From assembly GCA_022708505.1 (NCBI GenBank), contig JAKIYP010000014.1, positions 1 to 41,452 on the forward strand: 41,452 bases of DNA, read 5' to 3'. The notes beneath the pieces were generated by a model that was not told the DNA's origin, did not search any database, and saw nothing but the letters and a program-made list of their open reading frames with translations. Shown here piece by piece: positions 16,985 through 37,534 of this stretch. This DNA comes from Bacteroidota bacterium. GTDB taxonomy: Bacteria > Bacteroidota > Bacteroidia > Bacteroidales > Paludibacteraceae. How positions within the stretch are numbered: the first letter of the stretch is position 1; each line of letters starts with the position of its first letter. The position numbers were made by a program, and so were the translations under genes.

Positions 16985-16990
16985 ACAATG

Positions 16991-17058: not shown

Positions 17059-17060
17059 AA

Positions 17061-18602: not shown

Positions 18603-18651
18603 AAACCTCTTTTATTTATTTGGAGACGAAGATATGCAAAACATCATCACA

Positions 18652-18659: not shown

Positions 18660-18667
18660 ACTCAGGA

Positions 18668-18694
18668 TACATCTGCTTGTAATTTTGATACATT
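18668..18694 (-). promoter_or_regulatory. 27-bp conserved element, copy 2 (candidate operator)
   Basis: Second copy of the element at 17032-17058, differing only at three adjacent positions (GCT against TCG). TACAT half-sites start at 18668 and 18689, again 21 bp apart. It sits just upstream of the -7 box of the GH32 gene and downstream of the CBM9 gene. Confidence 0.6.
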
Positions 18695-18732
18695 TATATC
18701 TCTGAAAATAAAAAAGATTACTTTACGTCAAG

Positions 18733-19383
18733 TTACATCACCAACTCCCCAAAAAACTCCGGCCGGTGAAAATCGGGATTTTCAACCTCAATCGGATTCC
18801 AGCTTACATAGTGTGGTACAGAAGTGCCATCACCGCATTTATAAAAGTTGGCTCTGATGCTTTCCGGCAGATTGTCGGGATCAATGCCAAGCAGACTAAA
18901 TGGAATTTCAACAGTTAACGTCCAGTCGAAATTGCCTTTCTTCTCTTCGAACGGCTCGTTACCCAAAGATGCATAGCGTTTGATTTGCGACATCTTCTCT
19001 ACAGATAAAGGATTTACATCCTCCGTTCTGCTTTTTCTCTCTGTTGCCAGGCAAGTGCCGATACAGTTAAACTCAAAATTGAAGTAGGTTTTGCTGCCGG
19101 GAATCTGACAAAAAAACTCAACACAGCTGTCCTGCCAAACCGGATCCTGATCCTTGGAGTAAATGGCTTTTATTTGTTTCTCGTTAACAACAAAATGAAT
19201 AAAGAAAGCCTTCGAGGAACGGGCAATATTGAACCGGGCATCTGGTCTGACAGAATAGGAGCCAGGCCAGTTAACGGCATCAATTGTTTCAAAACCAACT
19301 GATTCAGAAATAACAGACATTATTTGTCTCATAGAAACAGCGCTATCCAGCTCACTAAGATATTCAACTTTTGTTGTTTTCAT
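18733..19383 (-). CDS. CBM9-like carbohydrate-binding protein, no signal peptide
   Basis: A 216-residue protein resembling the CBM9-like/DOMON beta-sandwich family of Bacteroidota. Typical blocks are ARFNIARSSKAFFIHFVVNE, DPVWQDSCVEFFCQIPGS, YFNFEFNCIGTCLA, FDWTLTVEIPFSLLG and ANFYKCGDGTSVPHYVSWNPI, ending FHRPEFFGELV. There is no signal peptide, and an in-frame TAA three codons before the ATG rules out an upstream extension, so it should be cytosolic unless exported in an unusual way. Ligand and role are unknown; an intracellular sugar-binding or sensing role is possible. It lies between the HTCS and the first GH32 gene and has its own candidate -7 box. Confidence 0.82.
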   Translation of the reverse strand: MKTTKVEYLSELDSAVSMRQIMSVISESVGFETIDAVNWPGSYSVRPDARFNIARSSKAFFIHFVVNEKQIKAIYSKDQDPVWQDSCVEFFCQIPGSKTYFNFEFNCIGTCLATERKSRTEDVNPLSVEKMSQIKRYASLGNEPFEEKKGNFDWTLTVEIPFSLLGIDPDNLPESIRANFYKCGDGTSVPHYVSWNPIEVENPDFHRPEFFGELVM

Positions 19384-19481: not shown

Positions 19482-22400
19482 CTACCCGACTTTCACATTC
19501 TTTTTAATATATTCCGTCGGTGTCATTTTGTAAACAGACTTGAAACAACTGGAGAAGTAAGAGGTTGTTCTAAACCCAAGATTAACCGCAATATCTGAAA
19601 CAGGGGTTTTACCCTCGGCCAGTATTTTCACAGCAAGATCCATGCGTATTTTCCGTATTAACTCACTTGGCGCCGACCCTGTAAATTCTTTAACTTTATT
19701 GTACAACCCTGTTTTGCTCATCCCAATCTTTTTACCCAATGTTTCCGTTGAAAAATCCGGATTTGAAATATTCGATTCGATTATAAAATACAATTTATTA
19801 ACAAAATCCTTATCTATATTAGTTGTGGCACTTTTCACTATTTCCTCACCAAATGTTTTACTATAATATATCCTGAGGTGGTCTCTTGATGTCAATATAT
19901 TTTCGATCTTACTGATGAGAATCACCGGATTAAAGGGTTTGATAAAATAATCGTCAGCACCTATATTTAATCCTTCCTGAATATGTGTTATTGACGCCCT
20001 TGCTGTCAGCAACACTACCGGAACATGACTGGTTTTTTCGCTCTGTTTTAATCGCTTGCACAACTCTATTCCATCCATTTTAGGCATCATGATATCGCTC
20101 AGCACCAAATCCGGGATGTTATTCATAGCGAGGGCCAGGCCGTCAACTCCATTCGATGCGGTAAGTACATGATAATATTTTTGCAGAATTTGTTGCAGGT
20201 AGTTTCGCAAATCCCGGTTATCTTCAATAACCAGAATCGTTTTCTGATTGCTTTTATCAGGTGTGATAATATTGGCGATAGATCCCTCATCTTCAATAAA
20301 TGTGTACTGCGATATTTCCTCACTGCTTTTGTAATCCTCAATAATCTGATTATCGGAAAAGTGAGTTCTACCTAGTGGTAAACAGACAGTGAAACAAGCA
20401 CCCTCCTGAGGATTGTTTTCAGCCCTTACTATACCTCTGTGTAATTCAATAATCCCTTTTACCAGGCTCAAACCTATCCCGGTTCCATTTGAATAATTTT
20501 CGCGATTACGAACCTGATGAAAAGGCTCAAAAATTGCTTCTATTTGATCCTCAGGAATCCCCGAACCTGAATCTCTAACCGACAAAATATAATTGGAATT
20601 TTTTATCTGCGAAATTATTTTAATCTTACCATGATCAGGTGTGTTTTTAAAAGCATTGGACAACAGATTAAACAACACTTTCTCCATCCAGAAACGATCG
20701 TACCAGAGATGAATGCCATCATCCTTCCCATCATAAACCAGATTAATATTGCGCTGTTCAGCCAACTGGGAGAAAGAGAGCACTATTTCATAGACAAACA
20801 AGGAAAAATTTCCCGCAGCAACTTTCAATTCCAATGCACTCGACTCTTTTTTTCTGAAATCAAGCAGTTCGTTGGCAATAAACAAAAGTCTTCTCGCATT
20901 TTTTAAAACAAGTTCGAGCGAGGATTGTGCACGCCCTGTCAACATCGAGTCTTTTAGAAGATTCTCCAAAGGAGCAATAATCAACGATAAAGGAGTACGC
21001 AATTCATGCGACAAATTAGTGAACAGCATCATCCGGTCTTCATGCAGTTTCTCCAGGTTCATTTGTTTTTCCTGCTGGAGAATAATATCATTTTTAAGTT
21101 TGAGTTCAACTTTCAGATAATGAATAAAGAGCGATATCAGGGCAACCAAAATAACCAGATACAATAAATAAGCCCACCAGGTTTTCCAGGGAGGAGGAAT
21201 GACAGAAAACCGCATCATTTCTTTACCTTCCGACCAAATTTCGTCACTGAAAGATGCCTTGAGTAAAAAACGGTATTCACCAGGGGGCAAGTTGGTATAA
21301 TATGCCCGTAAATTATTTTCCACGTGATTCCAGTTTTTATCGAATCCCTCAAGCATGTAGGCATAATTTATTTCTTTTGGGGAGAAATACTCAAGTGCCG
21401 TATAGTCGATGATGATGTTCGACTGATCATAAGAAAGCTTAAACTCCTTATTGCGGAAATCAATTTCAGATGGCTGAACTGCAACGTTATTTACCGTAAG
21501 TTTATTTATTACCAATGGAGGTACAGCGCTTCGTTTGTTTAAATTGGACGGGTTAAACGACACCAGCCCCTTATCTCCTCCAAAGAACATCAGTCCATGG
21601 GCATATAAAGCCGAACGCAGACTAAACTCATTGATATCAAAAGAAGTATAGTTTTTAATCTTAAACTTTCTTATATCGATCTGAGTAAGATTATTTTGCT
21701 GCGAGAACCAGATATTCCCAACTTCATCTCCGGTAATGGCATTGATGGTATTACTATTCAATTGATCTGGATATATAAAATGATTCAATAAATTGCCCTG
21801 CAAATCAATTCTGTATAATCCGTTTTCATTCGTACCGAACCACAATTGAGAATTTCTGTCTTTGTACAAGCAGTTTATCGCATCATTCGGTGAATTGGAA
21901 TAGGATGCCAGATCAATAAACTGTATTTCATTGCTTTCCAGATTAAATCTGTAATAACCATATTTCCGTTCCAGTATAACAAACTCATTATCAACAATCT
22001 TCTCGATGCTTCTGACAAATTCGAAATCGAAACGTTTGCCTGACCTGTCATAAAACTCATCCATCATCTTACCATCCCTGTCAAATTTTATCAGACTCTT
22101 TTCTCCCGTCGTACCTACAAGGACAGAACCATCTCCAACAGCGCATAGACTCATCACCGACCTTTCTCCGGGTACACGAAAAATTTGCTTTATTTTTTCC
22201 GCCTTTCTGTCGAACACCGCAATTATACCGTTGTTTGTCCCTATGTATAAACTGTTTAAGTCTTTACTGAAAGCAGTCACGATGTTAGTTCGGAAATTAC
22301 CTCCGTTTGCATCGGGAAGTTTAAAATGTTTGTAAGTTTTCTTCTGAAGATTATAAAATACAAAGCCACTACCTTCTATACCAATCCATATTCCATCTTT

Positions 22401-23501
22401 CTCGGTAATTAAAGGACCAATAATTCCCAGATGACGTTTTTGCGGATATGGATTAAGGACTTTAAAAGAATTACCTTCCCAATCAGGATTTCCATAGCTT
22501 ACTCCCCCTGCCCAGGTTCCTCCCCAGAGCGTTCCGTACCGATCAATATAAACGGAATGAAAAGAGAAGTGCGAAAATCTGTCATCTTCTCCCGACTGAC
22601 TTTTCACTCTCACAAAATAATCTGCGGCGGGAGAATAAAATGAGATTCCGTCAAATGTTGCCACAATGATATTGCCGTCATGATCCTCAGTAATACTCCT
22701 GATCGTATTATTCGACAAAGACAAAGGATTACCGGGTTCATTAACAAAATGTCTGTTTAACAACAGGTTTTTACTCAACTTATATAAACCCTGACCGTCG
22801 CTTCCCAAATAAACATCTTTATTTTTGGAGCAGTAGATCGTCCTGAATACTGTTTTTTCATTTGCTCCACTGATATTGAGTTGCTTTTTCTCTTTTGTTT
22901 TGGTGTCAAAAAGATAAAGTCCTCCAAACTCACAAGAAACCAGCAATTTCTTTTCATACTCACAGACATTCAGAACGGGAGCTTTTATTGAGCTGCATTT
23001 CATCAGTTTCTTTGTCCCGGTATCAAAATACAAGAGCCCCCCTTTTGTAGCAACCCATATTTTATTTTCCGAATCAATAATTATTTTTCTGATTCTATTG
23101 TAGTCACTGGATTTTTCCGGATCATTGTAAAAATAGCTTTCGAATGTTTCCTGTTCGTAATCATAAACATTCAATCCATAATGTGTTCCTATCCAGAGTT
23201 TATTTTCCTTGTCAATTGCAAAGCTAGTCGTATAATTACTACTTAACGATTTTTTTTCACCGATCAGATTCTTGTAACTGATAATTTGATTTCCGTCAAA
23301 CCGGTTTATCCCATCACGTGTTGCAAACCAAAGATATCCCTTGTTATCCTGTATGATATCAAGCACTGTCATCTGAGTCAACCCGTTTTTGGAGGTCAAC
23401 GTACGGTACTGAATGTCTTTGTACTGTTCGATATTAATACCGGCATAAACGGAGTTTATACCAATTAACATCACAAATATCAGATGCCCAAAACGTTTCA
23501 T
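19482..23501 (-). CDS. Hybrid two-component system sensor/regulator (HTCS), propeller type
   Basis: A 1339-residue one-protein two-component system. Order: signal peptide (about 1-20); periplasmic reg-prop repeats forming two seven-bladed propellers (about 25-655, e.g. IIQDNKGYLWFATRDGINRFDG); Y_Y_Y domain (about 660-770); one transmembrane helix (about 776-795); HisKA with phospho-acceptor His832 in NLSHELRTP; HATPase with N-box NLLSNAFKNT and G-boxes DSGSGIP and GTGIGLS; receiver with Asp1136 in LSDIMMPKMDG; AraC-type HTH (about 1240-1339, KTGLYNKVKEFTG and DIAVNLGFRTTSYFSSCFK). It would sense an oligosaccharide in the periplasm and activate PUL promoters. The known fructan HTCS BT1754 has a periplasmic-binding-protein sensor for fructose instead, so this one may sense fructo-oligosaccharides or serve the right-hand locus. 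Confidence 0.95.
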   Translation of the reverse strand: MKRFGHLIFVMLIGINSVYAGINIEQYKDIQYRTLTSKNGLTQMTVLDIIQDNKGYLWFATRDGINRFDGNQIISYKNLIGEKKSLSSNYTTSFAIDKENKLWIGTHYGLNVYDYEQETFESYFYNDPEKSSDYNRIRKIIIDSENKIWVATKGGLLYFDTGTKKLMKCSSIKAPVLNVCEYEKKLLVSCEFGGLYLFDTKTKEKKQLNISGANEKTVFRTIYCSKNKDVYLGSDGQGLYKLSKNLLLNRHFVNEPGNPLSLSNNTIRSITEDHDGNIIVATFDGISFYSPAADYFVRVKSQSGEDDRFSHFSFHSVYIDRYGTLWGGTWAGGVSYGNPDWEGNSFKVLNPYPQKRHLGIIGPLITEKDGIWIGIEGSGFVFYNLQKKTYKHFKLPDANGGNFRTNIVTAFSKDLNSLYIGTNNGIIAVFDRKAEKIKQIFRVPGERSVMSLCAVGDGSVLVGTTGEKSLIKFDRDGKMMDEFYDRSGKRFDFEFVRSIEKIVDNEFVILERKYGYYRFNLESNEIQFIDLASYSNSPNDAINCLYKDRNSQLWFGTNENGLYRIDLQGNLLNHFIYPDQLNSNTINAITGDEVGNIWFSQQNNLTQIDIRKFKIKNYTSFDINEFSLRSALYAHGLMFFGGDKGLVSFNPSNLNKRSAVPPLVINKLTVNNVAVQPSEIDFRNKEFKLSYDQSNIIIDYTALEYFSPKEINYAYMLEGFDKNWNHVENNLRAYYTNLPPGEYRFLLKASFSDEIWSEGKEMMRFSVIPPPWKTWWAYLLYLVILVALISLFIHYLKVELKLKNDIILQQEKQMNLEKLHEDRMMLFTNLSHELRTPLSLIIAPLENLLKDSMLTGRAQSSLELVLKNARRLLFIANELLDFRKKESSALELKVAAGNFSLFVYEIVLSFSQLAEQRNINLVYDGKDDGIHLWYDRFWMEKVLFNLLSNAFKNTPDHGKIKIISQIKNSNYILSVRDSGSGIPEDQIEAIFEPFHQVRNRENYSNGTGIGLSLVKGIIELHRGIVRAENNPQEGACFTVCLPLGRTHFSDNQIIEDYKSSEEISQYTFIEDEGSIANIITPDKSNQKTILVIEDNRDLRNYLQQILQKYYHVLTASNGVDGLALAMNNIPDLVLSDIMMPKMDGIELCKRLKQSEKTSHVPVVLLTARASITHIQEGLNIGADDYFIKPFNPVILISKIENILTSRDHLRIYYSKTFGEEIVKSATTNIDKDFVNKLYFIIESNISNPDFSTETLGKKIGMSKTGLYNKVKEFTGSAPSELIRKIRMDLAVKILAEGKTPVSDIAVNLGFRTTSYFSSCFKSVYKMTPTEYIKKNVKVG

Positions 23502-23593: not shown

Positions 23594-24706
23594 TCAGGAT
23601 TCAACAAAGTCACGCCACATAATTTCAAGGCCTTCATATTCAAAAAAGTCAATTCCCCTGAAAGCAGGCTTCGATGCACCCTCTGTATAGAAATAATTCA
23701 GTGCGTTAATCAAATACGTCCAACCTTTCAGATGAAGTGAAGTTGTTACATCACCGTCATCGCCATACGTATTCAAACTGGTTTTCACACAAATGCCTAC
23801 ACTCCCGGGCTTGCCTTTAGCATTCTCGACAGGAGTAAGACCCCGCGACCATACTTTTTCTCTGGTATCCGTATAACACATGACGGTTACAAATTCACAG
23901 CTTTCCAGAAATTGCAGGGTACTTCCGTAAGACAGGTTGCCTGAATTAAAGTTGTTCTGGTACATATAATGAATCGCTTCATTCAGAGGTAAACCATATA
24001 AATTGGCACGTGCCAGATTCAGCATTTCAAGTGTACGTTTCAACAACATATCATTTGAACCGCCAACTCCGTAGTTTTTACTACTATCCCAGAAATAACT
24101 CATCCCCGGTGGTGTATTTACTCCACCTTCTTTAAGCACATGCGGTTCCCAGTCGGCTGAAACACCATCAAAACGTTCATCGGGAGCAACAGCATTATTG
24201 TATGCAATCACTTGCTCACATTCATCAATGATAAGTTCGTCGTTGGCAAACTGGGCATACGAAGCCAAGCGTAACGCCCATACCTTCAGGCCAAATTCAT
24301 GGGCATATTTATTAAAAAGTCGCAGCCAGTTTGTCCGGACTATGTCTGAACCACTCATGGCATTTTTACCAATACTCAGGTATATATCTTTTATTCCCAG
24401 CAAAACAATACGTGCAGCAAGCTCTTTGGGTTTTTCAAGAAAACCTGTCACTGATTTTGAATCATAAACATACACCGCCGATCTGTATTGCTGATTGTTT
24501 CTCAATGCGGCCCTAAAAGGCAGCGCCGCTTCCATCATTTCATAAGAAATGCCTGCTGCGTCAGCCAATAAACTATCCCGGCGACCGGTTGATGTTTCTA
24601 TTTCAATCATAACCGGAACGGTAATATCCGGCTCCTCTTTATGGCAAGAAGAGCCGGATATAATTAACATAAACAACAATACCTTTTTTAATAATACTTC
24701 CTTCAT
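23594..24706 (-). CDS. GH18-like TIM-barrel lipoprotein of an unassigned family (copy A)
   Basis: A 370-residue lipoprotein (lipobox SGSSC, Cys21). I do not recognise a named family, but the layout looks like a remote GH18 (clan GH-K) barrel. FDGVSADWEPH (Asp180, Asp185, Glu187) aligns with the GH18 DGxDxDxE motif with Ser for the second Asp; VMCYTD (about 275-280) fits the GH18 beta-6 MxYD region; RGIDFFEYEGLEIMW at the C-terminus fits the last strand. Two paralogues lie at 24722 and 31577; the latter is the closer. Neighbours are two GH20-type enzymes and a NagB-like deaminase, so an endo- or exo-acting enzyme on N-acetylhexosamine-containing glycan is a reasonable guess. It is the last gene of its series; the HTCS follows after 92 bp with no terminator hairpin seen. 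Confidence 0.75.
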   Translation of the reverse strand: MKEVLLKKVLLFMLIISGSSCHKEEPDITVPVMIEIETSTGRRDSLLADAAGISYEMMEAALPFRAALRNNQQYRSAVYVYDSKSVTGFLEKPKELAARIVLLGIKDIYLSIGKNAMSGSDIVRTNWLRLFNKYAHEFGLKVWALRLASYAQFANDELIIDECEQVIAYNNAVAPDERFDGVSADWEPHVLKEGGVNTPPGMSYFWDSSKNYGVGGSNDMLLKRTLEMLNLARANLYGLPLNEAIHYMYQNNFNSGNLSYGSTLQFLESCEFVTVMCYTDTREKVWSRGLTPVENAKGKPGSVGICVKTSLNTYGDDGDVTTSLHLKGWTYLINALNYFYTEGASKPAFRGIDFFEYEGLEIMWRDFVES

Positions 24707-24721
24707 CTTTTATCCCGGTAA

Positions 24722-25792
24722 TCAATGGGTATCGGTTTTTTCGTAATTAGTTCTTTTATCAGCAGCAGCCGTACCATCCCACATTTTCTCGAGCCCCTGA
24801 AATTCGAAAACATCAATACCACGGAACGATGGATATACCGATGCCTTTTCTATCAGAAAATTTAAACCGTCAATCATATAATTCCATCCCTGCGGTTGAA
24901 ACGATGTAACAGGACCTTCGCTACCGTATGTATCTAAACTGGTTTTAACAGCCACACTTACACTTTTGGGGAAATTCTTTGCATTTTCGAGCGTCGGAAG
25001 AGCCATTTCGAGGACACGTTGCGGACGATAATTATAGGCCATCACGATAAGTTGATCGACATGTTTCAGCATCTGATGAGCGCTACCCCACGACAACTCA
25101 CCTTTATCATATCTGCCCTGAATGAAAAATCCCTGAGCCTGACTGAATTCCAGTTTTTTACCCATTTCCTTTCTGGCTCTTGCCATCACGTCTACCATGC
25201 GTTCACAAAGTTTATCATTATCTTTTCCGACACCATAGTTATCTGTCCCATGCCATTCCCACAGCAGTTCTTTCGGCCGCTCAACATGTCCTTTCTTCAT
25301 AATGTGTGGTTCCAGGTCTGCCGAAATACCATCGAAACGAACTTCTTTCTTATTCGTATAGTTAAAATCGATAACACTCTTGATGTCTTCATAGATGCGT
25401 TTATTGTCGACCCAAAGTTTAGAACTGCTCAAAGTCAGGATATGCACTTTCATTCCAAAATTGTGCGCAGTGGTATTAAATGCTGTAAGCCACTTTTCTT
25501 CATCCCGGTTTCCGGAATTAAGCCAGCGATTCAGTCCCAGATAAATATCGGTAAAACCTAGCAGGGCAAGCCTGGCTGCCAGTTTTTCCGGATTTTGCTG
25601 ATAATCACTTACAGATCGTTTTTGATAAATATATACCCCACTCCTGAAGCCTTTCGAAGTAGCAATCGCATCTTTAAACTGTTTTGCCTTTTCAAGCATT
25701 TGATTATCTACTGCTGCAAGTTGCTCAGGTGTAGTTGCAAACAAGGTCGACACAAAGAAAACGAACGTAAGAAAAAAAAATGATCTCTTCAT
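24722..25792 (-). CDS. GH18-like TIM-barrel secreted protein of an unassigned family (copy B)
   Basis: A 356-residue protein with an SPI signal (about 1-19, STLFA). It is the most divergent of the three paralogues: FDGISADLEPH carries Asp154, Asp159 and Glu161, and LIVMAYNYRP corresponds to VMCYTD of copy A, closer to the classic GH18 MxY[DN]. Shared blocks are RSGVYIYQKRSV, LAARLALLGFTDIYLGLN, NYGVGKDND, VAVKTSLDTYGSEGP and SFRGIDVFEFQGLEKMW. It lacks the lipobox of copy A, so it is probably periplasmic. The gap to copy A is 15 bp and to the GH20-like gene about 24 bp, consistent with one operon. The activity is unknown; differences in the loop after the motif suggest a different substrate or product from copy A. 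Confidence 0.75.
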   Translation of the reverse strand: MKRSFFFLTFVFFVSTLFATTPEQLAAVDNQMLEKAKQFKDAIATSKGFRSGVYIYQKRSVSDYQQNPEKLAARLALLGFTDIYLGLNRWLNSGNRDEEKWLTAFNTTAHNFGMKVHILTLSSSKLWVDNKRIYEDIKSVIDFNYTNKKEVRFDGISADLEPHIMKKGHVERPKELLWEWHGTDNYGVGKDNDKLCERMVDVMARARKEMGKKLEFSQAQGFFIQGRYDKGELSWGSAHQMLKHVDQLIVMAYNYRPQRVLEMALPTLENAKNFPKSVSVAVKTSLDTYGSEGPVTSFQPQGWNYMIDGLNFLIEKASVYPSFRGIDVFEFQGLEKMWDGTAAADKRTNYEKTDTH

Positions 25793-25816
25793 AATGCGTA
25801 TATTTTGTTTTCAAAT

Positions 25817-27346
25817 TTAATAAACTTGTTTTGATAAGAAGTCTTTTAATACAAACATTTTACGTTTTCTAATTTCATTCTGATGCGCAATTTCCCTGTC
25901 TGTTATAAAACCTTTTTGTAAAGAGGCAAACCGCTTATCTAATTTCTTTTCTGTTTGAAGAATTTCATCTATTTCCGAAAGAAGTCCTTTGGCCTTAGAA
26001 CGATCGTAGTTTTCCGACTGATATACAGACTCCAGCACTTTATATTTCAGATAATTTACCCGAATATCAAACATCAGTTTCAGGTGATCAAACTCGGTTT
26101 TGTTATTTTTCGGTTTCAGCGCATATAATTTATCGCGCATTCTGACTGCTTGTTTTAACAAATTCTCCACTGAGCCACCATTGGGTGTTTTTCCGGCACG
26201 AACAAGCTCTTGCCGGCTACTCAGTATTTCCCACAGTATTTTTCCCTCTTTTTCAGTCAGGTTAAAACGATTCTGAGCATATTCTGTTACAAATAGCTCC
26301 GGATTTAACGGTTCTGTCTGATTTACCGATTTTCCATAAGCGGCAAGTAAAATCCGGAATCCATTCAAAGGATATACATTTCTGACCTGCTCCATATCCT
26401 GTATCTCCCATCCCTGGTCGTACATAAAACTGTAAAGCCCCGATGTTGACCAGGATGTCATCACAACACCCTCGTATCCGGCTTTTCTTGAATAAGGAAT
26501 AAAATCACGTTGATTGTTGAAATGTGTCAACCATGTTGTCAGGTGCATATTATCCGGACTTGAACGGATAGATGGCGCTCCCCACATGGTGGCTCCCGCA
26601 TTATACAGCTTATGCATATCGCCAAAATGATTTATCTGCCATCCGTAATTCCAATCGACATAGATAACATTATCAGGCATTTCTGCAATGGCTTCTGGAT
26701 ATTTTAAAATGATATCCGCCCACAATACCGGAATTTTACCAAGTTCAGTAACAATTTCGCACATTGCCTTTACATAATCGACAAATAGTTTTGATTTACC
26801 TTCATTTTCAACCTTCCCCCTGCATTTCTCACAAGAACCCAACAAATAGGTTTCATCTCCGCCAATATGAAAATAGGGTGAAGGGTGGTAAGCTGCAACC
26901 TCTCTGAATAAACTTCTGAAAATGGGAACAGCTTCATCCACTTTCATCGGACAGACCTGAGAGACCTCCTTTCTGTCTTCGCTGATATGTCGATAACGTT
27001 CGTGACGAAGAATCCACTCCACATGTCCAAAACAATGATGAATAGGTATAACATCGATGCCCAGACCGGCACAGTAAGCAATGAACTCTTTGACTTCTTC
27101 CGGTTTATAAGAATATTTATTACTGATGGTTGCATTTTGATTATAGGGAAATGTAGCTTCCCACTCCATCACCAGTGTGTTAATTTTAAATCCGGCAAGT
27201 TCATTTGCAAATGCCTTCAAAGCAGGCAAAGTCATCACTTGTGAACGTAAATCCAGGTGAAATCCTTTGACTTTAAAATCGGATTGTGCTCCGGATACAA
27301 AAAACAACTGAGACAAGAAACAAAAAAATAAAAAAAATCGTTTCAT
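25817..27346 (-). CDS. GH20-type hexosaminidase, catalytic barrel without N-terminal domain
   Basis: A 509-residue secreted protein. The start ATG at 27346 begins a clean signal peptide MKRFFLFFCFLSQLFFVSGA; the longer frame from 27391 would overlap nagB and bury it. The barrel starts at once (KGFHLDLRSQVMTLPALKAF) and has the GH20 signature YFHIGGDE with Asp164 and Glu165 as the expected catalytic pair. CEKCRGK follows, as in many GH20 enzymes. There is no GH20b domain before the barrel, and the C-terminal 130 residues are a helical, charged region. This resembles the short GH20 group (HEXD-like) rather than classic exo-hexosaminidases. It would remove terminal GlcNAc or GalNAc from the locus substrate; which one is not clear. 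Confidence 0.85.
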   Translation of the reverse strand: MKRFFLFFCFLSQLFFVSGAQSDFKVKGFHLDLRSQVMTLPALKAFANELAGFKINTLVMEWEATFPYNQNATISNKYSYKPEEVKEFIAYCAGLGIDVIPIHHCFGHVEWILRHERYRHISEDRKEVSQVCPMKVDEAVPIFRSLFREVAAYHPSPYFHIGGDETYLLGSCEKCRGKVENEGKSKLFVDYVKAMCEIVTELGKIPVLWADIILKYPEAIAEMPDNVIYVDWNYGWQINHFGDMHKLYNAGATMWGAPSIRSSPDNMHLTTWLTHFNNQRDFIPYSRKAGYEGVVMTSWSTSGLYSFMYDQGWEIQDMEQVRNVYPLNGFRILLAAYGKSVNQTEPLNPELFVTEYAQNRFNLTEKEGKILWEILSSRQELVRAGKTPNGGSVENLLKQAVRMRDKLYALKPKNNKTEFDHLKLMFDIRVNYLKYKVLESVYQSENYDRSKAKGLLSEIDEILQTEKKLDKRFASLQKGFITDREIAHQNEIRKRKMFVLKDFLSKQVY

Positions 27347-27380
27347 CCAACTTATATTTATACAATTAATAACCAACTTT

Positions 27381-28154
27381 TTAATTATCACGATTCAATA
27401 ATCCCGCACTATCCTTATCCACATACAATGTTGCCGAAGCATGATTTCGTAATATTGAAGCAGGGCAACGCTCATTAATTTTCCCTTCAACAGTCAACTT
27501 CACCGCAATAGCTTTACGCCCTGTCGGTACCATGCAAAAAAGATGTTTCGCTCGCATCAAGGCCGGTATGGTAAGCGTCATCGCATGAACTGGGACATCA
27601 TCAAGAGAAGCAAAACAACCATCATTGACTTGCTGCTGACGACAGGCTAAATCCAGGTCAACAATCTTAACCAGTTTCGGATCGTCGAACATTGCTACAT
27701 GCGGATCGTTAAACGCGATATGCCCGTTTTCACCAATACCCATAAAAACAATATCCGTCGGATAATCTCCAAGTAAGGCTTCATAACGTGTGCAATTTTC
27801 TTCTGCTTTTAAATTTTCATTATACAGATAATGAACCTGCTTAAACGGAACTTTATCAAAAATCGCATGCTTCAGAAAATTACCGAATCCCTGTGGAGCT
27901 TCTCTTGATAAACCAATATACTCATCCATGTGAAAAGCGTTGATACGTTGCCATTCTATGTTATCTTCATGTATCAGCGATGATAAAAAGTCATTTTGTG
28001 ATGGCGCCGCTGCAAAAATTATATTGATACTTTCCTTCTGACGTAACAGATTTCTAATACATTGCGCAGCCTCCGTTGCAGCATGAGCACCCATTTCCAT
28101 GCGTGTTCTGAAGATTTTCACTTTTAAAGAATCTGTCTGAAATTGTCTGATCAT
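27381..28154 (-). CDS. nagB: Glucosamine-6-phosphate deaminase-like protein
   Basis: A 257-residue cytosolic protein of the NagB/6-phosphogluconolactonase fold. AFHMDEY carries the catalytic-base Asp region and GIGENGHIAFND the His loop of NagB; HAMTLTIPALMRAKHLFCMVPTGRKA matches the C-terminal sugar-phosphate site. The phosphate loop is unusual: the common PTGxTP is replaced by AAAPSQNDFL, as in NagB paralogues found in PULs. NagB converts glucosamine 6-phosphate to fructose 6-phosphate and ammonia. It supports an amino-sugar substrate for this locus. No GlcNAc kinase, NagA deacetylase or GlcNAc transporter is present in the window, so the earlier steps must be coded elsewhere. It lies 36 bp after the GH20 gene. 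Confidence 0.85.
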   Translation of the reverse strand: MIRQFQTDSLKVKIFRTRMEMGAHAATEAAQCIRNLLRQKESINIIFAAAPSQNDFLSSLIHEDNIEWQRINAFHMDEYIGLSREAPQGFGNFLKHAIFDKVPFKQVHYLYNENLKAEENCTRYEALLGDYPTDIVFMGIGENGHIAFNDPHVAMFDDPKLVKIVDLDLACRQQQVNDGCFASLDDVPVHAMTLTIPALMRAKHLFCMVPTGRKAIAVKLTVEGKINERCPASILRNHASATLYVDKDSAGLLNRDN

Positions 28155-28190
28155 AGCTTTTTCTATCTATTATTTCTTAGTTTTATATTT

Positions 28191-29807
28191 TTAATTTGTG
28201 AGTTTTCGATAATTTATTTCCAGGATATCATAATGTTTTATTATTGTACCGAGTCTGGAAATAAAATCCTCATAATTCTTGTTTGTCCGGACAGACCAGC
28301 TCACCTCCGCCAATGCAGCAATACGCGGAAAGACCATATATTCCACATGTTTCTCGTCCGGTATGTACTCTGTCCATACATTAGCTTGCGTACCTTTTAT
28401 TAATGCAGCTTGTTCTTTAGTAAGTTCTTCCGGAACAGGCGAATAAGCATAGACCTTCTCTAAAGGAAGAAATCCTCCGATAGTTAATGGTTCCGTTTTT
28501 CTATCTCCCTGATAGTAATCAAAATAAACAGACTTATGAGGTGTCATAATAACCTGATTACCTCGTTTTACACCTTGAATTCCACCATCTTCACTTCGCC
28601 ATGACATGATTGTAATGGTTTTTGAGACTTCAGCTTCAACGGCATCATCCCAACAAATCACTTTTTTTCCTCTTGTTTGTAAAAATTTCTCCATACGCCC
28701 TGTCACATAAGCCTGAAGTTGTGTTTCGTCCGCAATACCTTCTGTTTTCATTCTGTCCTGGCAAGCCTTGCAACGTTTCCATCTGGTTTTCGGCGCTTCG
28801 TCTCCGCCCAGGTGAATATACTCCCCCGGAAACAACGCCGCAACTTCGTCAAGTACATTTTCCAGAAACACCATGGTTTCTTCGCGTGTACAATAAATAT
28901 CATGAAACACACCCCACCGGCCGACAACTTCAAAAGGTCCACCCGAACAGGAAAGATCCGGATAAGCGCTTAATGCAGCCAGGGCATGACCGGGTAATTC
29001 AATTTCAGGAATTATATTTACAAATCGCTTTTTTGCATAGGCAATTACCTCCCGGATTTCGTCCTGTGTATAGTAACCTCCGTGATCCTTTACTTTCCAC
29101 TTCCAGTCGGGAGCATTCTTATGTCCATCAATTTCCATTCTCCTGAAAGCTCCTACTTCTGTAAGTTTGGGGTATTTTTTTATTTCAATCCTCCACCCCT
29201 GATCATCGGTCAGATGCCAGTGGAATGTGTTGAGTTTGTGGAATGCCAGCATATCAATAAAACGCATGACAAACTCTTTAGGCATAAAATGACGGCATAC
29301 ATCCAACATCATACCTCTGTAACCAAAAACAGGGGCATCACTGACTGTCATGCAGGGAACCGACCATTTCATATCTGTTGTTTTCTTAGTTCCATTAATT
29401 TCCGGAGGGAGTAACTGTCTTATACTTTGCAGGGCATAAAAAATGCCGATTGAAGTAGAGGCCCTGACTGTAATCTTGTCACGTGAGATGTCCAGTTTAT
29501 AAGCTTCATCACCTGCAATTTTGTTGTCAATCTGGCAAATGACGGCATTTCTGCTTACCTTACCGGTTTTAATCTCAAGTTCATAATCCGCTGCTGAAAG
29601 AAACAATTCTTTTAGTAATGAAACCGCATTACGCATGGCTTGATTATCCGGTTGTAATATGATTGTTGTTTTCGGGTTAAAAACAAACTCACCTCCTTTC
29701 AGCCTGTATGTTTGAGGTACAGGGATTATACCCGGTGATGCCATCATATTATTGAACGGAAAAATAAAAAAAAACAAAACGGTTAAAAAACAGGTTCCTT
29801 TACTCAT
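28191..29807 (-). CDS. Beta-N-acetylhexosaminidase, GH20
   Basis: A 538-residue classic GH20. Signal peptide about 1-23; GH20b alpha/beta domain about 25-155 (IIPVPQTYRLKGGEF); catalytic barrel from YRGMMLDVCRHFMPKEF, with NTFHWHLTDDQGWRIEIKKYP and the pair Asp336-Glu337 in YIHLGGDEAPK. The Asp orients the substrate acetamido group, and the Glu is the general acid. It removes terminal beta-linked GlcNAc or GalNAc in the periplasm. No sorting tail is present. It lies between the secreted jelly-roll proteins and the NagB-like gene, so glycan release, trimming and catabolism are in order on one strand. A perfect hairpin lies in the 134-bp gap upstream, which may set a lower or separate expression level for the genes downstream. 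Confidence 0.94.
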   Translation of the reverse strand: MSKGTCFLTVLFFFIFPFNNMMASPGIIPVPQTYRLKGGEFVFNPKTTIILQPDNQAMRNAVSLLKELFLSAADYELEIKTGKVSRNAVICQIDNKIAGDEAYKLDISRDKITVRASTSIGIFYALQSIRQLLPPEINGTKKTTDMKWSVPCMTVSDAPVFGYRGMMLDVCRHFMPKEFVMRFIDMLAFHKLNTFHWHLTDDQGWRIEIKKYPKLTEVGAFRRMEIDGHKNAPDWKWKVKDHGGYYTQDEIREVIAYAKKRFVNIIPEIELPGHALAALSAYPDLSCSGGPFEVVGRWGVFHDIYCTREETMVFLENVLDEVAALFPGEYIHLGGDEAPKTRWKRCKACQDRMKTEGIADETQLQAYVTGRMEKFLQTRGKKVICWDDAVEAEVSKTITIMSWRSEDGGIQGVKRGNQVIMTPHKSVYFDYYQGDRKTEPLTIGGFLPLEKVYAYSPVPEELTKEQAALIKGTQANVWTEYIPDEKHVEYMVFPRIAALAEVSWSVRTNKNYEDFISRLGTIIKHYDILEINYRKLTN

Positions 29808-29897
29808 TTAAAATTTAATTAGTTGCTGTATTTTTCAAATTCAACCAACAGTTCAACAATAACAATATCAAGCTAAATCCGGCCTTTGATACAGCCC

Positions 29898-29923
29898 CCG
29901 GACAGTAAAAAAGTACTGTCCGG
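29898..29923 (-). terminator. Intercistronic hairpin upstream of GH20
   Basis: A perfect 10-bp inverted repeat, CCGGACAGTA (29898-29907) and TACTGTCCGG (29914-29923), with a 6-nt loop, lies between the stop of the T9SS protein at 29942 and the GH20 start. It has no U tract on the minus strand, so it may be a processing or attenuation site. Confidence 0.6.
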
Positions 29924-29941
29924 AGATTGCTTGATTATAAT

Positions 29942-31540
29942 TTATGGAATAACAACCTTTTGTGTTTTCCCATTTATTTCAACCAGGTAAAAGCCCTGAG
30001 GCAATCTTAAACTAACATGGTTACCCTGACCCACCTTTACAGTCGCACCAGTCAAAGTTCTAACAGCATAATTTACATGCTCAGGTGATTCAAAAGACAG
30101 TAATCCTTTAGATGTTTTAAAGATGACTTTTGAAGCTGAAGTCTGAGTGTTTCCTGTTGTAGTGTCTTTTAAAGTAATACGAATATCATCCAATGCAAAT
30201 GGAATCTTCTCATCTTCTTTTTCAACATAGAATAAAATATCAGTAAGCTGATTGCTATTGATACTTACTGATTTTTCAGTAAAAGTGGCATCAAATGGTT
30301 CTGTAAGTGTTTCACACAAAATCCAGCCTGTCAAATCAGTAAACGTAGCTTCACTTGCAGGACGCTTATAAATAGAGAATATACTGGTTCCTGCAACTCT
30401 TGTTTTCATATAGAAGGTCAATAAGTCGGGTAAATCCAGATTAGGAATCATCAGCCATCCTGAAGTTATTGAAGGATTACCTGCCCCACCTCCTTTGATA
30501 CGAACTGAATAGGAACCCATATACAAACCATTGTTGTAGTTGGCATTCTGATCAATCATCCAGTCATTATTTCCGGATGTTTGACTGGATATCCATCCTG
30601 CAGGCAAAAGATCAGAGGTAAATCCTTGCAAAACAACATCATTAGTAACATTAAAAACGACTGTATAAACTTTTTTAGTTACACCATCGGCAGCAGTAAC
30701 TTCTATTTCGTATGCAATAGTATTATCTACCTGAACCGGTTCTCCAACCACAACAGTTGCAGTTGCATCTGTGGGGGTACCAACAATGGCAGGAATGGTG
30801 GCATTGTTAGTCAGAATATTGTATGTGGTTGTGTTGGGATTGAAGTTATTAATCGCTTTTCCACCAACTGTAATTTCGGTTAGCGTGGCAATTGTATTAT
30901 CAACAAACGGTTCAAAAGTAATATCATCAATCATAAAAATATCATTCAGATTACTGCCATCTAACGCTGGAGTTGGAGACGTAAAAAAAGCAAAATACAA
31001 TTTATAATCTGTATATGCTGATGCAACCGGGACTGTAAAAAAATACTCCATCTTTGTCCAGGTACTACCTAAATTAATTAGCGTATTTGCTGTTTTAGAA
31101 GGATCGTAAACACCACCTGCATTCGGACCCTGTACTTCTCCGATTTTAGGTTTTTTACCTGATTGGAATAAACTAACATTCACCAAAGTTGCAGTACCCC
31201 GTGCATAAAAAGTTAATTTATATTGCCCCCCTTTTGTCAGGGTTATCACAGAATTGTTGTAGAACCTGCAACCACCGGAAGGATGAGGATTAGCTAACAC
31301 AGCAGCGTTACTTCCGGTATGCCCCGGACCTTGATAGATTGTTAATCCACCATTACCGGCATCACCCGTCCAACCAGTTACACCTGTCAGAGTTGTAGAT
31401 TTTAAACCCGAACCATGATCTGTAAGAGCAGACCAACCTGTTTCAAAATCAGCGTTACCCAATGTCAACACATCGGCAGCTTGCATGGAAGATACACCTA
31501 TAAGTGTACTTAATGTCAAAAGGAATAAAAGTTTTTTCAT
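29942..31540 (-). CDS. Secreted multi-domain glycan-binding candidate with T9SS tail
   Basis: A 532-residue protein with four parts after a signal peptide (about 1-21): a jelly-roll-like domain (about 22-215, GFYNNSVITLTKGGQYKLTFYARG type sequence) shared with the next protein upstream; a short Ig-like/cadherin-like beta domain (about 218-298, ITVGGKAINNFNPNTTTYN); a choice-of-anchor-J/MAM-like domain (about 300-455, LPAGWISSQTSGNNDW to FALDDIRITL); and a T9SS sorting tail (about 465-532). No catalytic motif was seen. The shared first domain looks like a CBM4/9-type carbohydrate-binding fold, so the protein is probably a surface or secreted glycan binder. It lies 36 bp after the GH18-like gene with the same N-terminal domain. 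Confidence 0.75.
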   Translation of the reverse strand: MKKLLFLLTLSTLIGVSSMQAADVLTLGNADFETGWSALTDHGSGLKSTTLTGVTGWTGDAGNGGLTIYQGPGHTGSNAAVLANPHPSGGCRFYNNSVITLTKGGQYKLTFYARGTATLVNVSLFQSGKKPKIGEVQGPNAGGVYDPSKTANTLINLGSTWTKMEYFFTVPVASAYTDYKLYFAFFTSPTPALDGSNLNDIFMIDDITFEPFVDNTIATLTEITVGGKAINNFNPNTTTYNILTNNATIPAIVGTPTDATATVVVGEPVQVDNTIAYEIEVTAADGVTKKVYTVVFNVTNDVVLQGFTSDLLPAGWISSQTSGNNDWMIDQNANYNNGLYMGSYSVRIKGGGAGNPSITSGWLMIPNLDLPDLLTFYMKTRVAGTSIFSIYKRPASEATFTDLTGWILCETLTEPFDATFTEKSVSINSNQLTDILFYVEKEDEKIPFALDDIRITLKDTTTGNTQTSASKVIFKTSKGLLSFESPEHVNYAVRTLTGATVKVGQGNHVSLRLPQGFYLVEINGKTQKVVIP

Positions 31541-31576
31541 ATCAGTATTGTTTTTAAAAAAGTAAATAATTAAAAA

Positions 31577-33490
31577 TCATTTTATAAATTTATATTGAAC
31601 CGGTATACCGGCGTTGTGAATTAACTTGGCGATATAGCAACCATCAGGAAGATGTTTTAAAGAAACTTCCGCATTACCTTGAATCATTTTGCTTTGAAGT
31701 CTTTGACCCTGCAATGTGAAAATTTCAATTCGTGCCTCTGCATCGAACGGTTTGAAAACAAGTGCTGCTGAATGCTTATTATAAAACATCCATTTATCTG
31801 CCTGAAAATCTTTGGTGTTTTGGAGTGTTGTGATACTTATCGGTGCACCGCCGTCATCCCACATCAATTCTAATCCTTCAAACTCAAAAAAATCAATTCC
31901 TCTGAAAGCAGGTTTAACTGCACCTTGCGAATAAAAATAGTGCATGGCATCAACCAGATATCCCCAACCTTGAGGATAAAGCGATGTTGAAGCATCTCCA
32001 TTATCCCCATATGTATTCAAACTTGTTTTAACACAGATGCTTACACTTGAGGGATAATCATTTGCACTATCGATAACAGACAAGCCACGTTGCCACACTT
32101 TCTCTCTTGTATCGGTATATATCATCGTGGTTACAAAGTCACAATCCTGCAAAAATTGTGGCGTACTTCCGTACGAAAGAAGACCTGCGTTGTAATTATT
32201 CTGATACATATAGTGAATGGCTTCATTTATAGCCAATCCATTCAGGTTATTTTTTGCCAGAGAAAGCATATTGTGTGTACGCTGTAGCAGCAGATCGTTT
32301 GAGTTTCCAATTCCATAATTATTATTACTATCCCAGAAATAAGTTAATGATGAAGGTGTATTATCACCTCCTTCCTTAAGTACATGCGGCTCCCAGTCAG
32401 CCGAAACCCCATCAAATCTTTGAGATGCAGTAACTCCGTTATTGAACTGTAATACCTGAGCACAATCCTGCAGTATCAGGTTGTCGTCCACAAAATGATT
32501 GTAATTGGCCAATCGCAACGCCCAAACTTTCAATCCATATTCATGAGCTGAATGATTAAAATTTCGCACCCACTGGTAGCGTATAGCATCAACTCCTGTC
32601 AGGGAACTTGCCGTAGCTGATAAATAGACATCTTTAATCCCGAGTAAAGCAATCCGGGCTGCCAGTTTAGCAGGATTGTTGATATAAGTAGTCATTGAAC
32701 GACTGCTATATACATAAACGCCTGAACGATAAGATTCTTCAAACTTTATTGCATCTCGAAAATTCAATGCCCTATCCAGCATTCCTTCTGAGACCTGACC
32801 TGTAACAGCTAATGCAGTATCCTGCGAAACTGGTTCAACATTTTGCTCTAACACTACATCGTCAATCATAAACAGACTATTCATATTACTACCGTCAATA
32901 GTCGGTGCAGTACATCCATAGAATGCAAAATACAGCTTGTAATCAGTATATACAGCATCTTCGGGGACAGTAAAACTATAAACATGTTTGGTCCAGACCG
33001 ACCCATATGACAATGGTAAGTTGATGGTTTTGGAAGTATCATATATACCACCGGGATGCGGTCCGGCAACATGTGCTATAAACGGTCTCGTACTTGCTTC
33101 AAAAAGACAAACATTCACGAGGGTTGCGGAACCACGGGCGTAAAAAGTCAGTTTGTATTTCGCTCCCTTTGTCAGACTCAATATACTATTGTTATAAAAC
33201 CTGGCTCCTCCTGTTGCATGTGTATTGATTAATACAGCAGCATGATTACCGGTACGCCCCTCACCCTGATAAATGTTCAGGTTCCCGTTTCCAACATCTC
33301 CTTTCCATCCGGTTACATCTGTAGCAATGGCTGTTGCTTTCTTGAGGATAAGCTGTGGCGACCCAAAATCTGTCAATCCAGTCCAATCGGTCTCAAAACC
33401 TGAACTTTCAAGGGTTAACACATCCGAAGCATGCAAATTTTCAACCTGCATGAACAAAATACTCAATAATATAAAAATCGGTATTCTCAT
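31577..33490 (-). CDS. Jelly-roll domain + GH18-like barrel + T9SS tail (copy C)
   Basis: A 637-residue secreted protein. Signal peptide about 1-21; jelly-roll-like domain about 22-217, clearly homologous to that of the protein at 29942; GH18-like barrel about 230-565; T9SS tail about 575-637 (IEIFTLQGQRLQSKMIQGN to GCYIAKLIHNAG). The barrel keeps the family motif FDGVSADWEPH (Asp360, Asp365, Glu367) and is close to copy A over its whole length (NEAIHYMYQNN, YTDTREKVWQRGL, VKTSLNTYGDNGD). Having its own binding domain and T9SS export, it is the likely first-acting, extracellular member, with copies A and B acting at the membrane or in the periplasm. The activity itself is inference; the family is unassigned. 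Confidence 0.78.
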   Translation of the reverse strand: MRIPIFILLSILFMQVENLHASDVLTLESSGFETDWTGLTDFGSPQLILKKATAIATDVTGWKGDVGNGNLNIYQGEGRTGNHAAVLINTHATGGARFYNNSILSLTKGAKYKLTFYARGSATLVNVCLFEASTRPFIAHVAGPHPGGIYDTSKTINLPLSYGSVWTKHVYSFTVPEDAVYTDYKLYFAFYGCTAPTIDGSNMNSLFMIDDVVLEQNVEPVSQDTALAVTGQVSEGMLDRALNFRDAIKFEESYRSGVYVYSSRSMTTYINNPAKLAARIALLGIKDVYLSATASSLTGVDAIRYQWVRNFNHSAHEYGLKVWALRLANYNHFVDDNLILQDCAQVLQFNNGVTASQRFDGVSADWEPHVLKEGGDNTPSSLTYFWDSNNNYGIGNSNDLLLQRTHNMLSLAKNNLNGLAINEAIHYMYQNNYNAGLLSYGSTPQFLQDCDFVTTMIYTDTREKVWQRGLSVIDSANDYPSSVSICVKTSLNTYGDNGDASTSLYPQGWGYLVDAMHYFYSQGAVKPAFRGIDFFEFEGLELMWDDGGAPISITTLQNTKDFQADKWMFYNKHSAALVFKPFDAEARIEIFTLQGQRLQSKMIQGNAEVSLKHLPDGCYIAKLIHNAGIPVQYKFIK

Positions 33491-33569: not shown

Positions 33570-35459
33570 TTACTTCTGAATTTTTACTTTGATATAGAAA
33601 GTCGATGCTGATTTATCGGCCGGCATATTGTCAAACATATCATAAATAAACATCACATTCTTCGGTTGTCCATCAATTTGAGCCTGATAACCTATTACCA
33701 TATTGGCAGGTACAGGATTCGGGAAAGCTCCGGATGCAATTACCGGACTTTCGGAACTTCCGGTGATGGCCAATGCTTCGAGATTGTCAATCGTTGTTTC
33801 GTCAAAATCAGCACGATTAATAGCCGAAATAGACTTAATAGTGTAATTTGTAGACGTTCCCCAGGTATCCAAACCTGCATTGATTTTGGTATGTCCCGTA
33901 AATTTCGCGGAGCCTCTCGCGTAGGTCATATTGCCGGCACGTACAGCTCCATGACTCGATTGTGTGTGGAAAGCCACATCACATTCCATAGGAGCAGCTT
34001 TACCTTCGATATAACTCATTGCTTTCCGGTTTTTGGCGGAGAAGAATGGTCCGGGAAGTGGCCCTGTATCTGAAGTGGCCTTATTATCTTCACCGGCCAT
34101 CGACATGAGTACCCGTGCATAATAATATCCAACATGTACATCACGGTAAATATTTGTTACCTTACCATTGATATCCACAACCTCAACTCCTACTTTGCGG
34201 GTTGACTTAGTTGCACCGAAAGTTGAATTCAACGTGATATTATTCCCTGAATAACTTACCGGAGTTCTTTGTATAACAGCTCCAGTATTGTCGTATACAA
34301 CAAAATCGACCGATTGATAACCGCTGAGTGTTGAAATAGTACCTGTCAGGGGAATGTTTTGCCCATCATCAACTCCGTTGAATGCATCAATCGTCTGGTT
34401 TAACGTTACTGTAGGCGCTGGGGCTGTTTCAACAACCTGAACTGTACATGTAAAGGAAGTTGTCTTATTATTTCCATCTGTTGCCTGTACAATCAGTCCC
34501 TGATCTTCCATTGTAAGCCTTTCTAACTGAACAGAGAAAGGATAGGAAGCTTGTGTGGGCGACAAATTAACCTCGTTAAGCAACACATTCCCCGAAGTTT
34601 TCTTTCTGAAGAGTTTTACTTGTTTTATTTTAGCTTCGGCAGTAATACTACCTGCTATCGTTACATTTGAAAATTCATTTGCACTGATTGAGGCTCCACC
34701 TGTAAAGACAACTTCCGGACCCGGGATTTCGGTAAACTCAATTTTTAATGTTGCCACTTTAATTTTAGGTTTACTTTGTTCGCCTGCCGAAACATATACC
34801 TTCACTGCAGTTGTTTTTGGTTCAAACTGATAACCATCCACACTCAGATCGACCCGGTAAGATTTATCCTGACCCGAGAATTTAATTGTATCTTTACCTT
34901 CAATAAGGATGGGAGTCTCAATCCGGTTTACCACTTTCGAAACTGCAAAAGCCATGAGTTCATCTTCACTTGAGGCATTGATCACAATGACTGGCATCGG
35001 ATCTCCTTCACGATAACTTACTACTGTCGATTCAATGCCATTTACTCTGAAATTTACAGTAGGTGCATCTCTTAAGGGAATTACCCTGATCGGCAGTGTT
35101 GCCGACACGATACGGCCTGCTTTATCTTTGGCTTCTACCTTAAATCCAACTACATCTTCGGTATATGGAATTAATTTTGAAATAGAAAAGCTATTGACAT
35201 TTGAAAAAGAAGTAACCGGACTTTCGTACATTGTTTCTGAAAGTTCAGATTTAATTACATACTGAGTAACACTTGTAAGACCAGCTTCCGCCTGAATTAC
35301 AGATACTATTTCCGGAACACGGGCTGCATTCAGATCAACCACTATACTGTCGACCATAAAAATAATTCTGGGTTCAGCAAAAGCATCCAGATCGATAGGA
35401 TCCGGCTTGCAACCGGCAAATAGTATGACAAATAATAATAAAAATTCTTTTATCTTCAT
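33570..35459 (-). CDS. Multi-Ig lipoprotein, candidate surface glycan-binding protein
   Basis: A 629-residue lipoprotein (lipobox LFAGC, Cys17). Residues about 25-425 hold several Ig-like or cadherin-like beta repeats (for instance VSVIQAEAGLTSVTQYVIKS, GPEVVFTGGASISANEFSNV and APAPTVTLNQTIDAFNGVDD). The C-terminal 190 residues form a different domain (RVLMSMAGEDNKATSDTG to STFYIKVKIQK) that probably faces the ligand. No catalytic motif was seen. Its place directly after SusC, SusD and the FAS1-like lipoprotein is where Bacteroidota PULs code surface glycan-binding proteins (SGBPs): an extended spacer with a distal binding domain. I do not recognise the C-terminal domain. Confidence 0.72.
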   Translation of the reverse strand: MKIKEFLLLFVILFAGCKPDPIDLDAFAEPRIIFMVDSIVVDLNAARVPEIVSVIQAEAGLTSVTQYVIKSELSETMYESPVTSFSNVNSFSISKLIPYTEDVVGFKVEAKDKAGRIVSATLPIRVIPLRDAPTVNFRVNGIESTVVSYREGDPMPVIVINASSEDELMAFAVSKVVNRIETPILIEGKDTIKFSGQDKSYRVDLSVDGYQFEPKTTAVKVYVSAGEQSKPKIKVATLKIEFTEIPGPEVVFTGGASISANEFSNVTIAGSITAEAKIKQVKLFRKKTSGNVLLNEVNLSPTQASYPFSVQLERLTMEDQGLIVQATDGNNKTTSFTCTVQVVETAPAPTVTLNQTIDAFNGVDDGQNIPLTGTISTLSGYQSVDFVVYDNTGAVIQRTPVSYSGNNITLNSTFGATKSTRKVGVEVVDINGKVTNIYRDVHVGYYYARVLMSMAGEDNKATSDTGPLPGPFFSAKNRKAMSYIEGKAAPMECDVAFHTQSSHGAVRAGNMTYARGSAKFTGHTKINAGLDTWGTSTNYTIKSISAINRADFDETTIDNLEALAITGSSESPVIASGAFPNPVPANMVIGYQAQIDGQPKNVMFIYDMFDNMPADKSASTFYIKVKIQK

Positions 35460-35478: not shown

Positions 35479-36084
35479 TTAGTTAAATGTATTGTTATTA
35501 ACCGGTCGTGCATGTCTGTTTAAAACATGGCAAACTGCATTGGTACACATCAAATTAGAAGTTACAGCATATTTTAGTGAATTCGTCAGGCTCTGCCATG
35601 CCGGATCCAGGCCATTTACAATTAACCGGGAATAATTAAATGAATTTCTGTTTTCAAGTTGCAATGTCATGTAGGCATCAGGCGAACGCCATAAGGTCAC
35701 AACGGGCGTCGGGTCAAAATTAAGCTGTCCTAATCCATGGTAGTAACCATCGATGATATGATATTTCAGCAAATTCTCCCATTTGGCTTTATTTGTTGGA
35801 GTAACAGCCAGAATAGCCGTAAGACTGCCCATTGCACTGTTATTCAGCAACAAATAAGTATATTTGGTTGTTGATGAATAATACAGGGTCGTATCGATTC
35901 CACTTTCCCTTATTGCAGCAGTAAATTCAGAGAATACATCCGGCCGGGATTTAATAAAGTCCCAAACCGTCATATCTACTACATTGCTTTTATTCGCAGG
36001 TGTGTATTCATAATCCTCGGGTATACCCAGACATCCTGAGAACAGAAATACGACAATTGTTGATATTAAAAATATATGTTTCAT
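35479..36084 (-). CDS. FAS1 (fasciclin)-like lipoprotein
   Basis: A 201-residue lipoprotein (lipobox LFSGC, Cys18). The body resembles one fasciclin/FAS1 domain: TVWDFIKSRPDVFSEFTAAIRESGIDTTL at the start, YTYLLLNNSAM in the position of the TxFAPTNxA motif, and LLKYHIIDGYY in the position of the LxYHVVxG motif, ending CTNAVCHVLNRHARP. FAS1-like lipoproteins occur next to SusCD in Bacteroidota PULs and are thought to bind glycan or other surface proteins. It is 21 bp after SusD and 19 bp before the multi-Ig lipoprotein, within one operon. Ligand unknown. Confidence 0.7.
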   Translation of the reverse strand: MKHIFLISTIVVFLFSGCLGIPEDYEYTPANKSNVVDMTVWDFIKSRPDVFSEFTAAIRESGIDTTLYYSSTTKYTYLLLNNSAMGSLTAILAVTPTNKAKWENLLKYHIIDGYYHGLGQLNFDPTPVVTLWRSPDAYMTLQLENRNSFNYSRLIVNGLDPAWQSLTNSLKYAVTSNLMCTNAVCHVLNRHARPVNNNTFN

Positions 36085-37521: not shown

Positions 37522-37534
37522 GATGGTCAACATT

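Follow-up and report, generated by a model that had tools for sequence, protein, structure and literature searches.

Do three related barrel proteins, encoded beside amino-sugar genes in a Paludibacter-like bacterium of the Bacteroidota, cleave N-acetylhexosamine glycosides, and to which family of glycosidases would they belong? The window analysed here is an entire contig of 41,452 bases from an incomplete genome (75% complete). We examined the three proteins through their sequences, gene neighbourhood, predicted folds and relatives.

Three paralogues in an amino-sugar utilization locus

The initial annotation had described three minus-strand genes sharing one barrel and its motifs, and we recovered all three: paralogue A (24722-25792; 356 amino acids, a predicted (beta/alpha)8 barrel), paralogue B (23594-24706; 370 amino acids) and paralogue C (31577-33490; 637 amino acids). 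C consists of an N-terminal beta-sandwich, of carbohydrate-binding type in a low-confidence model, followed by the barrel (about residues 225-550) and a T9SS type A sorting domain. A script located the motif FDGISADLEPH in A and FDGVSADWEPH in both B and C, placing the acidic pair at D159 and E161 of A (codons 25316-25318 and 25310-25312, minus strand), D185 and E187 of B (24152-24154 and 24146-24148, minus strand) and D365 and E367 of C. The later M-x-Y strand reads MAYN, MCYT and MIYT in A, B and C, respectively, with the tyrosine at position 253 of A, and RGIDxFExxGLExMW is common to all three. B and C are 60% identical over 335 amino acids and A is 38-40% identical to either one, a similarity far beyond chance (1.5e-72 for A versus B, 4.3e-79 for A versus C). 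A Paludibacter MAG (L004) holds a copy of A that is 97% identical; there, a 1367-amino acid open reading frame (ORF) comes after B.

The proteins had also been assigned three different exits. The assignment holds for C, whose tail exceeds the curated T9SS type A cut-off (TIGR04183, 32.1 versus 23 bits); the other two were judged by eye only, B carrying a lipobox-like cysteine near its start, as a lipoprotein would, and A a plain signal peptide, so that it is taken as periplasmic. The N-terminal module of C is 53% identical over 233 amino acids to that of its neighbour at 29942-31540, a probable surface glycan-binding protein, and both modules match Pfam CBM_4_9 under its cut-off.

All of these genes belong to one minus-strand run, in which intergenic distances range from -11 to 134 bases. 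It begins with a SusC homologue, a TonB-dependent transporter (37535-40624), and a SusD homologue (36106-37533), followed by a fasciclin-domain protein (35479-36084), an Ig-like protein in the usual SusE/F place (33570-35459; a look-alike in sister locus L007 was recognized by eye), C and the binding protein. It continues with a canonical GH20 enzyme with a GH20b domain (28191-29807; Pfam E 1.5e-119), a NagB-type glucosamine-6-phosphate deaminase (27381-28154), a second GH20 enzyme (25817-27391; Pfam 2.2e-16, GGDE kept), A and B. The deaminase scores over its Pfam cut-off and under the NCBIfam NagB cut-offs, and its closest solved structures are NagB. The annotated setting of two GH20-type enzymes and a NagB-like protein is therefore borne out by Pfam matches and nearest structures. 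The best PDB match of the GH20 enzyme at 25817-27391 is 8qk1, HEX-2 of Trichuris suis, a member of GH20 subfamily 1 that prefers an aryl GalNAc substrate (PMC11308363); consequently, GalNAc is a possible substrate sugar.

Sister locus L007 contains look-alikes of much of the run together with NagP-, NagA-, NagB- and NagX-type genes. Its NagA scores above its own cut-off and the other three under theirs; the NagX-type gene comes after the B-like gene. In locus L005, a ROK gene is weakly nearest to NagC. Another contig of the window's own genome encodes a NagA that is 74% identical to that of L007, adjoined by a transporter 69% identical to the L007 NagP-type one. The proposed amino-sugar context is supported, with both GH20 enzymes and NagB in the run and NagA and the NagP-type transporter elsewhere in the genome. 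A SusC/D pair is combined with enzymes of the kind that releases HexNAc and with genes for GlcNAc catabolism, as in an amino-sugar polysaccharide utilization locus (PUL); the neighbours point to a GlcNAc glycan, and GlcNAc is our best guess for the sugar.

A second, adjoining locus (2220-19383) looks like a fructan PUL, with four GH32 proteins, three DUF4960 proteins (one protein has both domains) and a SusC/D pair; it also contains a CBM9 at 18733-19383. A hybrid two-component regulator (19482-23501) lies between the two loci.

Relationship to GH18 and PgaB barrels

We searched curated families for the barrel, for which no characterised family with the same motif had been recognized. A and B match nothing in Pfam at E up to 1, the C barrel has nothing but an insignificant SdiA-regulated match there (0.2), and in NCBIfam C is matched in its tail only, with none to the barrel. 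In Pfam, GH18 (PF00704) and GH153/PgaB (PF14883) match neither A, B and C (for GH18, E up to 1) nor 29 family members (for GH18, 0.1), and GH20 (PF00728) does not match A, B or C; at 0.1, the same 29 relatives match no glycosidase family in Pfam or NCBIfam. A alone matches no PDB sequence at E up to 10 and nothing in a plasmid collection, and a PHROGs search returned insignificant matches only. A GHL13 search had matches in 2 of 61 genomes. A literature search on new GH families and GH18-motif variants found nothing on the family. The claim of novelty therefore stands as far as significant Pfam, NCBIfam and direct PDB matches to the barrel are concerned, and is narrowed by a distant link to GH18 and by one solved superfamily member.

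The GH18 link comes from the HMM-HMM comparison that the initial annotation had suggested. Using hhalign against a GH18 profile of 12 rows (PF00704 matches drawn from related genomes), a 29-row family profile scored 92.0%, a 14-row profile with bridging sequences 94.5% and the superfamily profile alone 74.4%. The seven closest sequences alone scored only 46.9%, and the link consequently depends on wider alignments. The alignment pairs DGISADLEP with DGIDIDWEY, setting D159/E161 on the GH18 pair, and MAYN with MTYD, setting Y253 on the strand-6 tyrosine of GH18. In control comparisons with GH18, no score above 0.3% came from 40 column-shuffled or 2 reversed alignments, and GH13 scored 1.9%; the family scored 5.0% against a thin GH20 profile (3 rows). 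GH13 compared with four family or superfamily profiles scored 64.2, 40.3, 7.3 and 0.8% over 45-55 columns, and its two highest scores, with profiles A5 (55 columns) and A11 (48 columns), came from alignments away from the active-site residues; part of the profile signal is therefore that of a generic barrel. Two superfamily barrels reach PF00704 directly at 2.1e-5 and 3.9e-5 (24.8 and 23.9 bits, under the 29.6 cut-off). By profile comparison, the family appears homologous to GH18.

The predicted structures agree with the annotated GH18-like barrel. An AlphaFold2 model of A, built on an alignment of 29 sequences, is an eight-stranded (beta/alpha)8 barrel (pLDDT 91.8, pTM 0.89) in which D159/E161 lie immediately behind strand 155-158 (strand 4), as in GH18, and Tyr253 lies behind strand 247-251. 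The model of C has a lower overall quality (pLDDT 78.9, pTM 0.58), with residues 271-490 at 94-98, residues 501-540 at 89-94 and a poorer N-terminal sandwich. In both models, the predicted catalytic D-x-E lies where strand 4 ends. Among the 50 Foldseek matches listed for A, whose families are assigned from entry titles, 29 are GH18 or GH18-like, led by EndoSz in first place, and 5 are PgaB, its C-terminal domain ranking second (5.7e-7); these 34 have E values of 3e-7 to 9e-6. The other 16 listed are galactanase (4), isocitrate lyase (5, already at ranks 6 and 7), GH164 (3), GH20 (2) and xylanase (2). Across the listed matches, identity is 8-15%, TM is a modest 0.35-0.50 and rmsd is high. A whole-chain search with C was led by xylanase 10B, a CBM22-GH10 protein, in an alignment that spans domains with an rmsd of about 21 A, and is taken only as a guide to the sandwich-plus-barrel layout.

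Could the three simply be divergent GH18 enzymes, already GH18 by CAZy standards? The profile scores of 92-94% and the prevalence of GH18 structures among the listed Foldseek matches would favour this, yet we think it unlikely, as the family fails two tested features of GH18. One is the Pfam match, lacking in A, B, C and the 29 members. The other is the middle Asp of the GH18 motif DxxDxDxE, where Asn also occurs (as seen in A6): none of 81 family ORFs has either residue at position 157. GH18 also carries a Trp on strand 8, which the family does not preserve.

On sequence evidence, the family falls within a wider superfamily, itself unnamed, with the motif 'FDGxxxDxEP'. When the seven closest sequences of the family were compared with a second set, the 'FDGxxxDVEP' proteins, the match scored 99.7% and extended over 272 columns. 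One solved member was found, PDB 10yv, entitled 'Putative GH97 from Cellulomonas fimi', which is matched by the 'FDGxxxDVEP' profile (A10) at E 4.1e-17 and by profile A5 at 3.9e-6; a literature search found no publication naming it. It shares the superfamily by sequence and has DVEP, but it is 275 amino acids long and the W180/YGxGxxND stretch of the family is not visible in the printed alignments. Only F153, D159, E161, P162 and Y253 are invariant across 14 sequences whose identity to A ranges from 18 to 66%. The superfamily profile matches 11 of 385 Bacteroidota genomes, counting the window's own, and in the plasmid collection two superfamily barrels match 7 and 4 records from Paenibacillus, Bacillus, Priestia and Pontibacillus, mostly annotated as hypothetical proteins. 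In locus L005, the family member is followed directly by another, distantly related superfamily barrel, which carries a CBM9 module (10969-13353); the NagC-like ROK gene comes after it.

Superfamily barrels also occur in a different setting. In locus L145, an outer-membrane efflux (OEP) protein carries the barrel at its C-terminus (5041-7170), and locus L144 encodes a similar-looking protein of 731 amino acids (6831-9026; OEP part by eye only). Both genes adjoin HlyD-type genes (weak HlyD matches in L144) and TackOD1 response-regulator genes, and in L144 also GT2; the arrangement suggests an exporter of exopolysaccharide into which a hydrolase is built. These loci, together with the second rank of the PgaB C-terminal domain, lend some weight to the idea that A, B and C hydrolyse a different substrate or use a different mechanism, one example being PgaB-like action on partly deacetylated PNAG or on a bacterial exopolysaccharide. 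However, only two such fusion-type loci are annotated, and the GH20 enzymes with NagA, NagB and NagP suit N-acetylated units, which makes this an improbable account of the three paralogues.

Retention and loss of the putative catalytic residues

Among 59 close relatives the family has one confident match (G023), the window's own genome aside, and a search of 394 other Bacteroidota genomes found it in one. Of 197 genomes in the same class as Lentisphaeria genome G454, 68 have it, G454 included, as do 47 of 288 genomes of the corresponding phylum sample, which overlaps the class set. A match in G048 (9.3e-4) was taken as chance, with an internal stop and ORFs lacking the motif. Contig C1 of G879 bears seven equal matches at intervals of about 11.5 kb, in two groups at low and high coordinates, which are either a tandem repeat or an assembly artefact.

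We collected 81 family ORFs, leaving out matches in G608, G609, G671, G759, G795 and G797 and a second match in G724. Asp159 and Glu161 are both kept in 21 of them, and Tyr253 accompanies the pair in all 21, compared with 8 of the 60 others. These 21 are not independent: A and B each have a copy in L004 at 97-98% identity, and two L005/L006 pairs are 83 and 93% identical. The serine that had been proposed to replace the middle Asp is present in A, B and C but is not a family rule; in the 21, Q, S, H, I, G and T all occur at position 157 and Asp never does. The nine close copies (three in the window, two each in L004 and L007, and one each in L005 and L006) all have D159, E161 and Y253.

The remaining 60 ORFs come from genomes of the Lentisphaeria class (among loci L019, L020, L029-L031, L033-L051, L078 and L082-L117), and many are about 360 amino acids long. 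Both residues are lost in 34, only Asp in 24 (one of which retains Tyr253) and only Glu in 2, while Trp180 and Asn192 are kept in all 60 and a lipobox-like pattern appears near the start of 42. They are probably pseudoenzymes, as judged from their residues, with the weakest case for the 24 that retain Glu; the fold thus also serves without the full pair. A FastTree tree of 79 ORFs, omitting two fragments of less than 200 residues, unites the nine close active-type copies (support 0.98); a second clade beside the active one (support 0.72) comprises 59 of the 60 ORFs without the full pair. The existence of this neighbouring clade, with its conserved Trp180 and Asn192, is what one would expect if A, B and C bound amino-sugar glycans without cutting them, like chitinase-like lectins and probably most of the collected Lentisphaeria relatives, but the intact D159, E161 and Y253 of all nine close copies, likewise kept by superfamily members at 18-24% identity, make such a role quite unlikely for the PUL proteins.

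Proposed mechanism and comparison with known systems

We consider it likely, on sequence and modelled structure, that A, B and C are active enzymes from a distant GH18-like branch, as yet without a name, and cut beta-linked glycosides of N-acetylhexosamine, most likely GlcNAc. The best reading of their chemistry is that they are putative substrate-assisted beta-N-acetylhexosaminidases, GH18-like and outside GH18 by its Pfam definition. The direct support comes from the sequence family, the predicted fold, the positions of the residues along the barrel, the co-conservation of D, E and Y, and the gene context; from here we infer enzymatic activity, linkage and the order of the pathway steps. Glu161 (A numbering) would act as the general acid/base, while Asp159 and Tyr253 would position the 2-acetamido group to attack the anomeric carbon, giving an oxazoline route with retention of the anomer, for which the middle GH18 Asp would be dispensable. 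At the cell surface, C, with its T9SS tail and binding module, and the putatively lipid-anchored B would produce fragments, which SusC/D would take up. In the periplasm, A and the two GH20 enzymes would trim them, and NagP, NagA and NagB would use up the GlcNAc. By these computations, the locus is of a familiar catabolic kind and the enzyme family should work like GH18.

If so, an unnamed family would join the GH18-like enzymes, it could be tested whether the textbook GH18 motif needs its middle Asp, and active and apparently dead natural relatives would share one scaffold. Three cloneable proteins and two catalytic residues would then offer a handle on the use of GlcNAc glycans by such bacteria. 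A broader picture, to which we give slightly less than an even chance, is of an unclassified superfamily that is sister to GH18, is substrate-assisted without the middle Asp, and has branches in GlcNAc-polymer feeding, in outer-membrane exopolysaccharide exporters and in a common class of catalytically dead envelope proteins of Lentisphaeria.

Compared with GH18 (PF00704; chitinases and EndoS/EndoF-type ENGases), the family shares the (beta/alpha)8 barrel, a DG followed by D-x-E where strand 4 ends, and M-x-Y on strand 6, whose tyrosine is kept in all 21 ORFs with the full pair. In contrast to GH18, it lacks the middle Asp and the Pfam match, has a W180...YGxGxxND stretch after strand 4, and ends in RGIDxFE where GH18 has its Trp. 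GH153 (the PgaB C-terminal domain) resembles the family in its Foldseek rank and in the related barrels of apparent exopolysaccharide export loci; the family differs from it in lacking the Pfam match and in its catabolic gene context. At the level of the locus, the closest parallel is the Bacteroidota chitin PUL, of which Flavobacterium johnsoniae provides an example and which combines SusC/D, GH20, a secreted enzyme and GlcNAc catabolism. The window's locus has the same components but, unlike chitin PULs, its scanned genes include no Pfam GH18, and three copies of the unnamed family stand instead.
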